A stretch of 31,779 nt of DNA, taken from the IMG/VR virus record IMGVR_UViG_3300034019_000634, positions 1 through 31,779 of that record; one strand, written 5' to 3'. This stretch comes from a virus. This document shows, piece by piece, positions 10,729 to 31,779 of this stretch; within the stretch, counting starts at the first letter, position 1; every line of letters begins with the position of its first letter. The translations under genes were made by a program, and so were the position numbers. The notes under the pieces are model-generated. The model was not told the origin of the DNA and did not search any database. It worked only from the letters and a program-made list of their open reading frames with translations.

Positions 10729-11871
10729 TTATTCAGATACTTCTGATTTCTCTTTTTCTATTTTTTCTTTTAGTTTATCAATACTTTCTCGTACTGGCTT
10801 AAAGTGATGAAGCCCTTTAGAGATGTTACCACCTATTTTTTTAGCTTCTTCTTTTAATGCTTCTAATTCATTTACTAATTCTGGATCTGCTTCAATTTCA
10901 GAATCTAATTGTTCACGAATAGAATCGGTACTTGATTTCTCTAATTTGGCTTTTGTTTCTGCTAATTCTTTTTTAAGAATAGCTAATTCAGTAGCCATAT
11001 CGTTTTTAGTGTTTAAAGGTTCTGCTTTAGCCATTGATTTCTCAGATTGTTTTAGCTTTTCACGTCCTTTAATATCTAACGCCGATTTAACGTCTGGATA
11101 TTTTTTAAAGTATTCATAAACAGCAGGCTCATTGTGACCTAAGAAACGTCCCTCATAATGGTAGCCGTCTAATGAATCAAATGTAATTACACCTGTATTT
11201 ATACATCTGTTTAAAATTGTTACTAATTCACGATTTGGATTATCCCAAATTTGTAAGAATTGAGAAGGGTTTTGTTCTGCTCTTTTTAATACTTCTGATG
11301 TTAAAATAGGTAATGAAGTTGTTTCAGTCATAATACCTAAATTTCGAGCCATATTATAAAGTTCTTCACCATATAATGACATAGCCACATCAATAGAACG
11401 TCTTGCGTCTGTAATACGCTTAATTTCCAAGTTAGCGGCTTTCTCAGCGTCATGTACTCTAAAGATATGTACCGCTTCATTTCTACTTAAATTAGGAGAG
11501 CCTAACACGATTGTACTTCTTAATAATACAATTGCTTTCTTTCTCTCATTTGGAATGCTTAAATCGAATGTATTAAGTCCTGATAAAGATATTCCTAACC
11601 ACTTTAATTCTTTTGTGCGGTTATCAACGCCAATACATATACCAATCAAAACATCTGATTGTAAATCTTTTGTTGCTCTGTAAATATATGATTGTATTGG
11701 TGACCTAGAATTTTTTTTAATAGATTCTAAAACTATAATTCCAGAGCTTGGTAATAAATCTTTATCATCCAAGTCTATCACTTTGTGTTCAATTCCGTTA
11801 CCGTCTTTTATAAGTTTGTATGGTAACTCCTTTGCAACTTCTATGCCTGTGGCACTTTTTTCTATTTGCAT
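10729..11871 (-). CDS. Capsid-adjacent protein with C-terminal coiled coil
   Basis: The 380-residue product has a globular region of about 270 residues, including GICIGVDNRTKELKWLG and a YHYEGRFLGHNEPAVYEYF block. A highly charged helical tail from about residue 275 follows, with ELAILKKELAETKAKLEKS and a terminal KLKEKIEKEKSE. It is directly downstream of the major capsid candidate and upstream of the connector-like gene, and is bracketed by terminators. The arrangement suggests a head assembly or head-completion factor. I do not recognise a named family. The coiled coil and position are seen; the role is inferred. Confidence 0.5.
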   Translation of the reverse strand: MQIEKSATGIEVAKELPYKLIKDGNGIEHKVIDLDDKDLLPSSGIIVLESIKKNSRSPIQSYIYRATKDLQSDVLIGICIGVDNRTKELKWLGISLSGLNTFDLSIPNERKKAIVLLRSTIVLGSPNLSRNEAVHIFRVHDAEKAANLEIKRITDARRSIDVAMSLYGEELYNMARNLGIMTETTSLPILTSEVLKRAEQNPSQFLQIWDNPNRELVTILNRCINTGVITFDSLDGYHYEGRFLGHNEPAVYEYFKKYPDVKSALDIKGREKLKQSEKSMAKAEPLNTKNDMATELAILKKELAETKAKLEKSSTDSIREQLDSEIEADPELVNELEALKEEAKKIGGNISKGLHHFKPVRESIDKLKEKIEKEKSEVSE

Positions 11872-11902
11872 AATTTGTTTTTTTAATTGTTTATAATTTT
11901 AT

Positions 11903-11931
11903 AAAAAAGGGTTGTTTATAGCACAACCCTT
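11903..11931 (-). terminator. Rho-independent terminator after the major capsid gene
   Basis: Perfect 9-bp stem AAGGGTTGT/ACAACCCTT with a 7-nt loop, followed by a T run on the minus strand, 17 bp after the capsid stop codon. No new promoter box is seen before the next gene. Confidence 0.82.
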
Positions 11932-11947
11932 AAAGCTATTATTTTTA

Positions 11948-13453
11948 CTATGCTGCTTTATAGATAATACCGCAAATAGCTGTATTATAAATATTAAACA
12001 TATCTTCTTTTAACATTGCATATTTTGTAACGTCAACCTCAGATTGTACTAAACCAGACTCTCCTGTTAAACCTAACATTTTAGCTTCAACGTAATCACG
12101 TTTAACTCCGTTAGCTTCTTTACAAAGAATTTCCATTGTTGGTTTGTCTTCAGTTGTTAAACCAATAAAGTAGTAGTTACTTGATTGTAACAAACGTCCG
12201 TCATTACCACGTTGAGGGAAAATTTCTGGATCATCAAACAAAGTATGAATCATAAATAACACTTTGTTACCATTGATGTTAAATGAATCGTATTGGAAAC
12301 CAGCGTCAACACTTGCTCCACCTGCTTGTTCTGTTTGATTTACAATTTGAACTAATTGGATGTTTTGACCACCAAGTAAGTTTTGCATTTTACGTTGTGC
12401 GTTAGCATAACCATCTGTACCTGTTACACATACCCAAGTGATACCTTGAACTGTATTAGAACCTAATTGTAAAGTTCTCATCATGTCTTCAAAGTCATCT
12501 TCAGTAGCTTCTCCATTAACACCTGAACCAGTCATTGTGTTAGTACCTGCAACTTGCTCTTCAAAACCATCACCAATAATGATTGGTAATCCTGTTTCTG
12601 GGTCAGTACCTAAACTAGATTCTGTACGTAATGTACCATCTGTGTTTTTCATTGTAGATACACCTAACCATTTGTTACGCTCGTTTTCAACTGTCATTAA
12701 CGCTTTAGCTTGGTCTAATTTCCAATATAACCAACCGATTTTTTGTCCATCGGCATATTCATACCACAATACATCTGATTGCGCTCCACCTGTAATAGCA
12801 CAAGTTTTACGTTGAATAGTCATGTGATTAATGAATGAATCTGGTTTTTTATCACGGCTATCTGAACGTAATGAACCTTCTGAATAAGCAGTATAAATAG
12901 GGAAACATGATTTAGTTGAACCAACATCAGTACTGAAAGTAAATGTTGAACCAGCAATTAATAATTTGAAAGTGTACAACCAACCTGAAGCAGATGAACC
13001 TGTAGGGTAAGATTGAACACGTGCTTGTTTACCTGAAGGGAAACGTACCACGTGACCAGGATATAATGTTTGGTCTAACATTTTTAATTGGAAAGTTCCA
13101 TCAGGACTTACTCCACCTACTTGAGAGATAATAACAGCAGCACGCTCAATACGTCCGATAATATCGAAACGGTAAGCGTTGTTACCAATACCTTTATCTT
13201 CTTGTGCTGGTTTAAGAGTTCCTGTTTTTGTACGTTGAGAAGGGTCAACGAAGTAAGAATTACCACCTGCGCCTTTTTTAACAGCTCCAGATGTTAATAA
13301 CGTCATTAAATAACGTTTGTTTTTCATTTCTAACATATTGCGAATCGCTGGTTTTACAGCTTGATTTGCAATTAAGTCATTTTGTGTGGTACAAGTGTCT
13401 TCTGAGAATGTACCTCTACGAACTTGTATTTGTCCAGCATTTTGTTGTGCCAT
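11948..13453 (-). CDS. Major capsid protein (candidate)
   Basis: The 501-residue product is the best candidate for the major head protein. Its size suits the large capsid proteins of Bacteroidota podovirus-like phages. It lies directly after an acidic scaffold-like gene and is followed by a strong terminator. Composition is balanced, with few cysteines and long beta segments. Notable regions are an N-terminal helix with QAVKPAIRNMLEMKNKRYL, a DKGIGNNAYRFDIIGRIERAAVI strand pair, and a GTDGYANAQRKMQNLLGG helix near residue 345. The C-terminal part (YDSFNINGNKVLFMIHTLFDDPEIF) fits the axial domain of an HK97-type fold, but I cannot show the fold. No protease site is evident. Confidence 0.7.
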   Translation of the reverse strand: MAQQNAGQIQVRRGTFSEDTCTTQNDLIANQAVKPAIRNMLEMKNKRYLMTLLTSGAVKKGAGGNSYFVDPSQRTKTGTLKPAQEDKGIGNNAYRFDIIGRIERAAVIISQVGGVSPDGTFQLKMLDQTLYPGHVVRFPSGKQARVQSYPTGSSASGWLYTFKLLIAGSTFTFSTDVGSTKSCFPIYTAYSEGSLRSDSRDKKPDSFINHMTIQRKTCAITGGAQSDVLWYEYADGQKIGWLYWKLDQAKALMTVENERNKWLGVSTMKNTDGTLRTESSLGTDPETGLPIIIGDGFEEQVAGTNTMTGSGVNGEATEDDFEDMMRTLQLGSNTVQGITWVCVTGTDGYANAQRKMQNLLGGQNIQLVQIVNQTEQAGGASVDAGFQYDSFNINGNKVLFMIHTLFDDPEIFPQRGNDGRLLQSSNYYFIGLTTEDKPTMEILCKEANGVKRDYVEAKMLGLTGESGLVQSEVDVTKYAMLKEDMFNIYNTAICGIIYKAA

Positions 13454-28035: not shown

Positions 28036-28043
28036 CAAAAATA
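28036..28043 (-). promoter_or_regulatory. Possible -7 box (TATTTTTG) of the early leftward block
   Basis: TATTTTTG on the minus strand, 46 bp before the first gene of the block. No -33 TTTG is seen at 17-21 nt, so support is limited. Confidence 0.3.
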
Positions 28044-28151: not shown

Positions 28152-28194
28152 AAAAGCCTTTATAGATTCCAAACCAAAGGTAAAGAATTTTTTG

Positions 28195-28268
28195 TTGCGC
28201 TAACAGGATTCGAACCTGCGACCTTTTGGTTATGAGCCAAATGAGATAGACCACTTCTACATAGCACA
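28195..28268 (-). tRNA. tRNA with CAT anticodon (Met or lysidine-type Ile)
   Basis: A 74-nt cloverleaf on the minus strand. The acceptor stem TGTGCTA pairs with TAGCGCA (one T-G pair), and the anticodon stem TTTGG/CCAAA holds the loop CTCATAA with anticodon CAT. The T arm GCAGG-TTCGAAT-CCTGT is canonical, with one G-T pair. The D arm is less regular: its first pair would be T-C and its loop is 9 nt with the conserved GG. The 3' CCA is not encoded and must be added. A CAT anticodon serves elongator methionine, or isoleucine AUA if the C is modified to lysidine; the initiator is unlikely because the acceptor stem starts with a T-A pair. An AT-rich phage would benefit from an AUA-reading tRNA. 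Confidence 0.85.
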
Positions 28269-29389: not shown

Positions 29390-29791
29390 TTAAGCGTTTA
29401 TTGGTTCTTTTATTGGGTTGGGTTGGTTCAATCTAAATACTATCTGGTTAACTGTTTCTAACTCGTTTAAAGCCTGGTTAAGGGTGTAAAATCCATTAAA
29501 ATAGGTTAATACTTCCTGCTTTTGTAGCCTGTTTATTATCATATTTAATCCGCTGTGTGTTAGTGGTTTAGCCTCTATTTTGTGGGTGTTTTTAATATAT
29601 ATAATTTTGGTTAAAATTTGGGTTTGGGTTTGGTTGTTGTTTTTAAAGGGGTGATTTTTGAAAAGATGATTTAGAGCTATTGTTGTTAAAATTTGGTTTG
29701 TGTTTGTGGTGTTTAGTTGTGATAGTATTAGAGCGTATAATGAGTATGTGTTGTTAATTGGTATTATTAATGCTTTACTATTTGTTTTCAT
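29390..29791 (-). CDS. Possible winged-helix protein, Asn/Thr rich
   Basis: The 133-residue product is rich in Asn, Thr, Ile and Leu. Residues about 60-112 look like a winged-helix domain: LTKIIYIKN, then LTHSGLNMIINRLQKQEVL as a recognition-type helix and TYFNGFYTLNQAL as a wing. No DNA-contact residues can be named. Its ATG is directly preceded by GCCGCCG, like two other genes in this group. It is probably co-transcribed with the HTH gene 52 bp downstream. A regulator or replication-associated role is possible. Confidence 0.5.
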   Translation of the reverse strand: MKTNSKALIIPINNTYSLYALILSQLNTTNTNQILTTIALNHLFKNHPFKNNNQTQTQILTKIIYIKNTHKIEAKPLTHSGLNMIINRLQKQEVLTYFNGFYTLNQALNELETVNQIVFRLNQPNPIKEPINA

Positions 29792-29850
29792 CGGCGGCTT
29801 AGATTGGTTTAATGTGGTTAAAATTGATTTAAAGGGGTTTTAATAGGGTT

Positions 29851-30030
29851 TTAAGACAATAAAAAACCGTTTTCAATTAATCGCTTGTCTAAATCTGTTA
29901 ATGGTTTTGAATTGGGTTTAAAACCTCTTTTAATTCTATAGTCTTCGATCTCTATTATTATAGCTTTTATAGTTCTTTTGTATTCTAAATGTTTTAACCA
30001 TTCTATAAATGTTTTAAATTGTTGGTTCAT
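29851..30030 (-). CDS. Small 59-residue protein
   Basis: Found by reading the minus strand. The frame begins MNQQFKTFIEWLKHLEYKR, continues with a charged IIIEIEDYRIKRGFKP segment and ends LDKRLIENGFLLS. It is helical, basic and lacks a membrane segment. Its ATG is directly preceded by AAGCCG, as in other genes of the group, and it begins 12 bp after the stop of the 50-residue gene. Spacing and start context support a real gene; no function is visible. Confidence 0.55.
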   Translation of the reverse strand: MNQQFKTFIEWLKHLEYKRTIKAIIIEIEDYRIKRGFKPNSKPLTDLDKRLIENGFLLS

Positions 30031-30042
30031 CGGCTTTTGTGG

Positions 30043-30195
30043 TTAATTGAATAAATGATTTTTATTATTACTTATTTGAGTGTTATTATTTACTTTGTTT
30101 ATATCCTGTATTAACTGTTCTTTAATCTTTTTTAATAGGCTTTTATGCTCCTTTGATTCATCGGCGGTCCGTGGCTTTTTATTTTTATATTTCAT
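30043..30195 (-). CDS. Small 50-residue basic protein, first of the leftward accessory group
   Basis: Found by reading the minus strand. The product begins MKYKNKKPRTADESKEHK, has a helix KSLLKKIKEQLIQDIN and ends with a Asn-rich tail. The start is preceded by CCTTGCAA, which resembles the leader motif of the rightward genes that diverge from the same region. It is likely to be the first gene of the leftward group; no motif gives a function. An overlapping ATG after GCCG at 30165 opens only a nine-residue frame. Confidence 0.42.
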   Translation of the reverse strand: MKYKNKKPRTADESKEHKSLLKKIKEQLIQDINKVNNNTQISNNKNHLFN

Positions 30196-30383
30196 TTGCA
30201 AGGCTTGTAAATAGTGGTTTTGATGGTGTAAAGTTAATCAATTTTATTAAGGTTTCAAAATAAATATAAAAATAAATGTAAATTAATTGCATTGATATAC
30301 AGATAGTTATAAATTATTTTGTGTAAAATAATACTATAAATGTAACCTTATTAATTTATTTACGTTTAACTATATAAATAAAC

Positions 30384-30410
30384 ATTATTAACCTTTAAAA
30401 ACCTTGCAAC
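30384..30410 (+). promoter_or_regulatory. Recurring 5' leader, copy 1
   Basis: TATTAACC, TTTAAAAACC and TTGCAAC end right at the ATG of the 94-residue gene. Related leaders precede the other rightward genes (30733-30758, 31324-31349, partly 30990-31008). Confidence 0.6.
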
Positions 30411-30695
30411 ATGAAAAACGAAATTAAAGAACTAAACAGGCTAAGAGCCTTTAAAGTTGAAACATTAAGCGCAACAGATAACAAGCCGACCAGAATTAAA
30501 TTAACTGACTTAAGATACAGTAAAACTGTTATTTTAAGTTATGGCGCAAAACACAACAGCCTAAAGGATGTTATAGAGGATTTTTTTAATAAAATAGGTA
30601 TTGAATTAACCGCTCAAACATGGGCAGAAGATAAAAACAGTATTCATTTATACGGTATCTATTTAACTGAAAATTTTGACATACAAATTAAATAA
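30411..30695 (+). CDS. Small unknown protein, rightward group, gene 1
   Basis: The 94-residue product contains FKVETLSATDNKPTRIKLTDLRYSKTVILSY, a beta-rich segment seen in small proteins of Bacteroidota plasmids and phages ('TLxATxxKPTRIKxTDLR'), then a charged DVIEDFFNKIGIEL helix. No function is known to me. It diverges from the leftward group across a 215-bp gap and is the first of four consecutive small genes with similar leaders. Confidence 0.6.
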   Translation: MKNEIKELNRLRAFKVETLSATDNKPTRIKLTDLRYSKTVILSYGAKHNSLKDVIEDFFNKIGIELTAQTWAEDKNSIHLYGIYLTENFDIQIK

Positions 30696-30732
30696 ATTGC
30701 AACCTTTAAAAACAAATAACGTATAAAATAAA

Positions 30733-30758
30733 TATTAACCACTTAAAACCCTGCAAAC
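30733..30758 (+). promoter_or_regulatory. Recurring 5' leader, copy 2
   Basis: TATTAACCACTTAAAACC followed by CTGCAAAC and the ATG. It aligns without gaps to the leader at 31324-31349 over 26 nt, with 19 identical positions. Confidence 0.65.
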
Positions 30759-30989
30759 ATGAAAACTGTAATTAATAACAACCTGAGAGTATACCAAGTT
30801 TTAACAAGCAACGGAAAGCAATTTTTTTGTAACATTGAAGACTTAAACAAAATAGTAAAAGAAAATAACCTGCAACCTGGTTATTTTAAAATAAATCATT
30901 TTTGGAATAATAAAGCCCAAAAAGTGAGTAAAAAAGATTTAAAAGCCTTCTTTGAAGGTAGCCAATTAAAACAAGAATTTTATTATTAA
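30759..30989 (+). CDS. Small unknown protein, rightward group, gene 2
   Basis: The 76-residue product contains RVYQVLTSNGKQFFCNIEDL and PGYFKINHFWNNKAQKVSKKDL, giving a strand-helix-strand outline. Similar YQVLTSNGKQ / HFWN.K proteins are found in Bacteroidota mobile elements, but no function is known to me. It lies 63 bp after gene 1 with its own copy of the recurring leader. Confidence 0.55.
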   Translation: MKTVINNNLRVYQVLTSNGKQFFCNIEDLNKIVKENNLQPGYFKINHFWNNKAQKVSKKDLKAFFEGSQLKQEFYY

Positions 30990-31008
30990 TATTTTAATAC
31001 TTGAAAAC

Positions 31009-31281
31009 ATGGAAAATTTAACAACAACACCAGAAATAAAAAAAGCTAATAAATACAATTATATTTTAGTTATACAGCAACACTTTGGAAGTTGGGAAGA
31101 TGTGAGCGAATACGAAGCCGACAGCCAACAAAACGCCAAAGAATACGACAATAAAATACTAATTAATTCTAAAGGTAGGGAATACAAGGAAACGCTTTTA
31201 AAACACGATTTAAGAGAATACCAGCGCACGGGATACCCCACAAGGGTAATATTTAGAAAAGAACTAAATAAGATTAACTGA
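31009..31281 (+). CDS. Small unknown protein, rightward group, gene 3
   Basis: The 90-residue product has NYILVIQQHFGSWEDVSEYEADS followed by a charged helix and a C-terminal YPTRVIFRKELN strand. The pattern of an N-terminal VIQ strand with W-E-D-V-S-E-Y and a final R(V/I)IFRKEL is familiar from small proteins of Bacteroidota plasmids and phages. Its leader is the most diverged of the group (ACTTGAAAAC before the ATG). A hairpin follows the stop codon. Function unknown. Confidence 0.55.
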   Translation: MENLTTTPEIKKANKYNYILVIQQHFGSWEDVSEYEADSQQNAKEYDNKILINSKGREYKETLLKHDLREYQRTGYPTRVIFRKELNKIN

Positions 31282-31300
31282 TGAGCTGTAATTCAGCGAA

Positions 31301-31324
31301 ACAAGGGTATTAAAATACCCTTGT
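31301..31324 (+). repeat. Perfect 10-bp inverted repeat after gene 3
   Basis: ACAAGGGTAT and ATACCCTTGT around a 4-nt TAAA loop. It lies 19 bp after the gene 3 stop. No U run follows, so it may be a processing or regulatory hairpin instead of a strong terminator. Confidence 0.75.
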
Positions 31325-31349
31325 ATTAATCAACTAAAAACTTGCAATT
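31324..31349 (+). promoter_or_regulatory. Recurring 5' leader, copy 4
   Basis: TATTAATCAACTAAAAA followed by CTTGCAATT and the ATG of gene 4. It aligns with the copy at 30733-30758 and begins at the last base of the hairpin at 31301-31324. Confidence 0.6.
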
Positions 31350-31643
31350 ATGAAAACAGTAAATTATAATAGAAGCCGCATATATTCAGGATGCGAACTA
31401 ACAGAAGAAACACAAAACGAAATTATTAACACCTACAACTTTGAAAAAAGTGACGTTTTAGACACTTGTTTTGTTAAATATATTAATAAGTGTTTAGGGG
31501 TTGAATTTATACCCCTAGATATGTTTATGCGAATAGATAAACAAATTTTTAACGGTGTTTATAGTACGTCTGCCTTTAGTGGTTATTTTATTAAATTTAA
31601 CAGCTCAGGTGATCAGGTTTTAATAGCTTATAAATATTGTTAA
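31350..31643 (+). CDS. Small unknown protein, rightward group, gene 4
   Basis: The 97-residue product begins MKTVNYNRSRIYSGCELTEE, includes two central cysteines, and ends with AFSGYFIKFNSSGDQVLIAYKY, a probable beta hairpin. It is not recognised, although strands of this kind occur in small mobile-element proteins. The gene follows a hairpin and a copy of the recurring leader. No membrane segment is seen. Confidence 0.55.
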   Translation: MKTVNYNRSRIYSGCELTEETQNEIINTYNFEKSDVLDTCFVKYINKCLGVEFIPLDMFMRIDKQIFNGVYSTSAFSGYFIKFNSSGDQVLIAYKYC

Positions 31644-31690
31644 CATTTGCCTGCTGTTTACTTGCAAGGTTTTAAAGCAGGTAAAAAACA

Positions 31691-31735
31691 CCGATAACAA
31701 GCTAATAACACACCGTTGTTAGTTTGTTACATCGG
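31691..31735. repeat. Long imperfect inverted repeat near the right edge
   Basis: A 15-bp stem (31695-31709 with 31715-31729, including G-T pairs) around a 5-nt ACACC loop. It is flanked by CCGAT and ATCGG that could extend the stem past a small bulge. There is no T run. Confidence 0.6.
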
Positions 31736-31764
31736 CAAACCAGCAACCAAAACCAAACCAAAAC

Positions 31765-31779
31765 ACCCTTTAAAACTTA
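31765..31779 (+). promoter_or_regulatory. Start of a fifth leader copy, cut by the window edge
   Basis: The last bases, ACCCTTTAAAACTTA, match the middle of the recurring leader. A further small gene probably starts just beyond the edge. Confidence 0.4.

Follow-up and report, generated by a model that had tools for sequence, protein, structure and literature searches.

Small accessory genes in a phage of a putative Bacteroidota host begin behind a recurring leader, which we take, with somewhat better than even confidence, to be a start-associated translation element of their operon, with genes turning over behind it. In the window (the whole stretch of 31,779 nucleotides analysed), TTAAAACCYTGCAA stands 1–3 nt ahead of the ATG in three of the four rightward small genes (30411, 30759 and 31350). 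The fourth rightward gene (31009) has a variant leader, and a leftward ORF (30195) has the leader end only. A relative phage with ∼50% identical packaging and capsid proteins carries TTAAAACCCTGTCAAnn-ATG ahead of three genes in its own small-gene row. At the level of sequence, the comparisons below establish that the leader keeps this position by the ATG, is mainly restricted to the small-gene row, and is spelled in a way that depends on the genome and not on the gene that follows.

The record is a linear virus fragment (31,779 bp, 32% GC). Its terminase, portal and major head protein genes, assigned through PHROGs families, lie on the minus strand, and the portal is distantly related (22–26% identity) to portals of crAss-like phages. 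Small genes occupy both strands at the right end, where the rightward row of four spans 30411–31643. Megablast against the phage collection found no relative, tblastn of the four row proteins against phage and plasmid records gave no match, and Pfam, NCBIfam, PHROGs and PADLOC returned no convincing match for them. A PADLOC match of accessory gene 3 to pAgo (E 0.002, 14.5 bits) was judged spurious. One relative, G003, was recognised via its terminase, which is 53% identical to that of the window. Genes were called with a simple, home-made program, and G003/G004, G006/G008 and L079/L082 are close to one another. The features of the window are as follows.

30196–30203 (−): CCTTGCAA directly 5′ of the ATG (30195) that opens a leftward 50-aa ORF, without the TTAAAA part
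30340–30370 (+): degenerate promoter-like motif GTAACCTT-N12-ACGTTTAAC heading the rightward row, found by eye; it fails the motif used for counting
30386–30410 (+): leader copy 1, TATTAACCTTTAAAAACCTTGCAAC-ATG(30411), edit distance 1 to the 14-mer defined below
30411–30695 (+): accessory gene 1, 94 aa, without database relative
30733–30758 (+): leader copy 2, TATTAACCACTTAAAACCCTGCAAAC-ATG(30759), edit distance 0
30759–30989 (+): accessory gene 2, 76 aa, member of a conserved family that also occurs in the small-gene rows of other viral contigs
30990–31008 (+): leader copy 3, TATTTTAATACTTGAAAAC-ATG(31009), a weak match of variant type TTAATACTTGAAAAC, edit distance 3
31009–31281 (+): accessory gene 3, 90 aa, with a homologue in G009
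31324–31349 (+): leader copy 4, TATTAATCAACTAAAAACTTGCAATT-ATG(31350), edit distance 2
31350–31643 (+): accessory gene 4, 97 aa, without database relative
31646–31685 (+): hairpin with a 10-bp stem (z −2.2), its loop holding TTGCAAGGTTTTAA
31765–31779 (+): possible fifth leader copy ACCCTTTAAAACTTA, cut by the record end

An earlier note on this DNA had described four rightward small genes behind related leaders, and every element lies where it was described, copy 3 being weak. Its count of 19 matches over 26 nt between copies 2 and 4 was confirmed by hand. The leader end that it placed ahead of the first leftward gene is present at 30195 but lacks the TTAAAA part. No contig overlapping the right end of the record, where the possible fifth copy is cut, was found. 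Position −3 is A in each of the four window leaders, most leaders are predicted to fold weakly, and most leader-bearing genes begin with ATGAAA. The type of copy 3, TTAATACCTGAAATT, also occurs in G003 and G008. The AlphaFold model of accessory gene 2 has the order beta-beta-alpha-beta-beta-alpha, and a fold search with it gave no significant match. Between genes 3 and 4, a near-perfect hairpin (ACAAGGGTATT/AATACCCTTGT, 31301–31325, +) overlaps the start of leader copy 4 and could be a terminator or processing site. In three consecutive leftward small genes (29341, 29795 and 30034, −), GCCG directly precedes the ATG (GCCGATG), a second string associated with gene starts, this one in the opposite operon.

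Enrichment was scored with a 14-mer from the window, TTAAAACC[T/C]TGCAA, at an edit distance of ≤2 and 0–3 nt before an ATG. Matches precede 4 of 984 ATGs in the window, all small-gene starts (30759, 30411, 31350 and, on the minus strand, 30195), and one first-order Markov shuffle of the window gave one match. The same 14-mer precedes 3 of 747 ATGs in G003, all of them starts in its small-gene row, with none in a single shuffle; there the leader is spelled TTAAAACCCTGTCAA. Copies in G008 are weaker, mostly three edits from the window 14-mer. Matches within two edits are found only in the small-gene region and are thus confined to non-structural genes. The four window leaders have a pairwise score of 12.8 versus 7.5 ± 0.6 in dinucleotide shuffles (0/300 reach it), and none of 300 random leader sets from the phage's leftward genes reached the mean of the four row leaders. 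In 11 of 15 rows the leaders are more alike than in every one of 300 dinucleotide shuffles; recurrence is weak, and does not beat all shuffles, in G008, G314, L105 and L098. Dinucleotide shuffles take no account of base preference at particular positions; large-gene leaders, which control better for it, exceed dinucleotide shuffles in similarity by just 0.17–0.33. General A-rich start context explains part of the leader similarity and is present ahead of structural genes too. The check proposed earlier, motif enrichment before genes of related genomes relative to shuffled sequence, was run and gave a positive answer in the 14-mer scans, the permutations and the row shuffles. Exact-motif scans of viral contigs gave mostly chance matches within genes. 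A host-wide chromosomal leader was considered and rejected: the G003 spelling occurs in 2 of 296 Bacteroidota genomes, and the window spelling gives 15 scattered matches across all genome contigs, estimated to be close to chance.

Leader spelling could be compared with gene identity across genomes. G003 and G008 have in common a 39-bp stretch (37/39, 95%) that ends exactly at the ATG, one leader being identical over 30 nt, and a second leader pair, TATAAACCCTGTCAATT-ATG, has a similarity score of 23. The proteins behind both near-identical leaders align no better than shuffles. Conversely, the G009 homologue of accessory gene 3 (43% over 79 aa) lies behind a different leader. Homologues of accessory gene 2 occur in seven other contigs at 48–79% identity, and in three further contigs besides, in co-directional rows of small genes; the window's leader was found in none of the seven. 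Several rows with gene 2 homologues have a recurring leader of their own, AACTTTAAAAACTTAAAA in L082, AACCTTAAAACCTTAA in L083 and L090, and AATTTAAACAnnAAGCAAA in L081. Over 12 rows with 138 leaders, the composition-corrected similarity of leaders of non-homologous genes is 1.32 within a genome versus 0.74 between genomes. Permuting genome labels gave a mean of 0.80 ± 0.07, and 0 of 2000 permutations reached 1.32, so spelling goes with the genome rather than the gene. The same contrast in the window is +5.47 for leaders of non-homologous neighbours versus −0.57 for leaders of homologues in other contigs, the latter from eight homologue pairs, seven of them accessory gene 2. The 41 homologous between-genome leader pairs average +1.7, driven largely by the close pair L079/L082. 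Rows of unrelated genes with a spelling of their genome's own suggest a common gene-start signal, with genes being swapped behind it. The earlier suggestion of gene exchange behind a conserved leader stands in this respect, as near-identical leaders front unrelated proteins and homologues elsewhere lack the window leader.

On the favoured reading, a single promoter at the head would serve the whole row. Each start site would combine an unstructured A-run with a phage-typical core, CCYTGCAA in the window and CCCTGTCAA in G003, which may be favourable for initiation or specifically recognised there. Incoming genes would land behind resident leaders, or neighbours' leaders would be copied, by recombination in the leader and intergenic stretch; the leader would stay while genes turn over. 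Bacteroidota ribosomes do not use Shine-Dalgarno sequences; what tunes their initiation is low structure together with A at −3 and −6 (PMC6847099). A phage RNA-binding trans-factor was sought, and RRM_1 and ribosomal S21 were absent from eight records, all fragments, which counts against the favoured reading, as do the four weakly recurring rows and the small set of four window genes with its poor copy 3; an Rfam search gave only tRNA and a sub-threshold histone hairpin. The phage encodes a tRNA-Met with a CAT anticodon (28194–28268, −). A GGG/CCC anticodon stem is typical of initiator tRNAs; this tRNA lacks it in its sequence and was rejected as an initiator. For Bacteroidota starts, the question is what marks strong ones beyond A-rich context, and rows with the same leader offer natural replicates that can be tested with reporters. 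They also suggest how phages gain accessory genes ready for expression, and the leader is a handle on small phage genes missed by annotation.

It is very improbable that the leader is instead a per-gene promoter or operator, bound as DNA by RNA polymerase or a phage regulator. Such a site would suit the 63–68 nt gaps ahead of copies 2 and 4 (the window gene gaps are 63, 19 and 68 nt), the palindromic TTGCAA, and the putative promoters within extended start-associated sequences of cluster K (PMC11373665). However, leader-bearing genes start 13, 21, 37 and 37 nt after the previous stop in G003 and 11–18 nt after it in G007, so that a promoter would have little or no non-coding space. The cores of relatives are not palindromic, and the position of the leader relative to the ATG is constant. 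The Bacteroidota sigma-A −7 box is defined as TAHHTTTG (PMC6847099); none occurs on the plus strand of window positions 29603–31779. A separate promoter-like motif, GTAAC[C/T]TT-N(11–14)-GTATA, has 12 matches in the window and relatives (overlapping loci included) and none in shuffles. Its matches are always intergenic, mostly 16–64 nt ahead of a gene, and it stands at the head of both the G003 row and, at 28036 (minus), the leftward operon of the window. Sites of the form TGTAAC[CT]TT-N12-..GTATAA lie at 28036–28010 (−) in the window, in L007 at 4676 (+) and 3621 (−), in L067 at 17073 (+) and 13365 (−), in L064 at 12742 (−), and in L063 at 2279 and 4035 (+). The motif resembles an ECF-type sigma site and overlaps a TAHHTTTG box in some cases. 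Together, the short stop gaps, the motif at operon heads and a row devoid of −7 boxes speak for a translation-start element rather than per-gene promoters. The earlier proposal of common control therefore survives for translation and not for per-gene transcription; one putative transcript with a start signal ahead of each gene fits.

Two further explanations keep the leader but give it another origin or role. Ordinary A-rich Bacteroidota start context could have been multiplied when leader-gene units were recently duplicated in tandem, their coding parts diverging afterwards, with no special role for CCYTGCAA. This is unlikely, even though TTAAAA-like runs precede structural genes too, the alignment of copies 1 and 2 continues through the first ∼50 nt of the ORFs (100 columns, 72%) and the ATGAAA start is common to most leader-bearing genes: the proteins align no better than shuffles, near-identical leaders are kept between non-homologous genes in G003 and G008, gene 2 homologues elsewhere lack the window leader, and structural leaders fall short of the similarity among row leaders. 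Alternatively, the leader might be primarily a recombination target, a short shared homology for gene exchange, with expression secondary. The 39-bp match of G003 and G008 argues for this, since it spans the leader between the genes, stops at the ATG and is flanked on either side by non-homologous genes. We nevertheless hold it to be decidedly unlikely: no recombinase site or inverted-repeat structure was seen, leader divergence between genomes fits selection on starts at least equally, and recombination does not require constant spacing to the ATG.

The hairpin after gene 4 raises the idea that the leaders are a shared RNA target and that its loop would pair over the start sites, controlling all leader-bearing genes. 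A 14-nt stretch of the loop, TTGCAAGGTTTTAA (31662–31675), is exactly reverse-complementary to the leader consensus TTAAAACCTTGCAA. When all window starts were ranked by predicted duplex formation, 30411 came 1st, 30195 (minus) 2nd, 30759 4th and 31350 5th. Among 300 simulated windows, none held an exact antisense copy and nine held a copy within one mismatch. No antisense leader copies within 1–2 mismatches were found in the rows of relatives. We regard such pairing, proposed from these predictions, as highly doubtful; if true, any gene put behind the leader would enter the same post-transcriptional regulon. The antisense match may have arisen by chance or be what remains of an inverted leader.

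The closest known kind, by position and distribution, is the Start-Associated Sequence (SAS) of cluster K mycobacteriophages, a 13-bp sequence present in 11–19 copies, typically 3–7 bp before starts of non-structural genes (PMC3203893). Cluster EF Microbacterium phages have a motif similar to SAS (PMC7302621). As in the window, the cluster K SAS with its extended form (ESAS) and the EF motifs are short and asymmetric and lie a few nt ahead of the start codons of several non-structural genes that are unrelated to one another. Motifs of related phages are themselves related but differ by group, the motifs are absent as such from host genomes, and a role in translation is suspected. Both stand by the ATG of several genes, SAS 3–7 bp and the window leader 1–3 nt ahead of it. 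However, the SAS consensus, GGGATAGGAGCCC, has a Shine-Dalgarno core, whereas the window leader has no such purine-rich core. Half of the SAS copies have 17-bp inverted repeats or a promoter in front of them (ESAS), whereas the window copies have no repeated inverted repeat and the promoter-like motif is confined to operon heads. Here, in addition, spelling changes from genome to genome. Gaps at SAS genes are mostly >50 bp; those of the window are 63, 19 and 68 nt, and leaders of relatives often lie 11–37 nt from the previous stop (13–37 nt in G003). Without a Shine-Dalgarno-type sequence or ESAS repeat, the leaders are thus a variant of SAS rather than a member. They share A at −3, an A-rich, weakly structured leader and the lack of Shine-Dalgarno with the Kozak-like A-rich start context of Bacteroidota (PMC6847099). 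That context is a position-wise base preference, whereas here a string of 14–15 nt is repeated along a single gene row and missing from the large leftward genes. Searches of the open-licence literature turned up no account of leaders like these in phages of Bacteroidota.

Two other observations were made in relatives. A 21-codon mini-ORF (MQTNLLTIxEL...) is conserved in two related phages after non-homologous genes (L068 5427 and L064 14531). In L067, GNGYGNG repeats encoded by a GCCGTN tandem array make up most of a 268-aa ORF (11363–12169, −).
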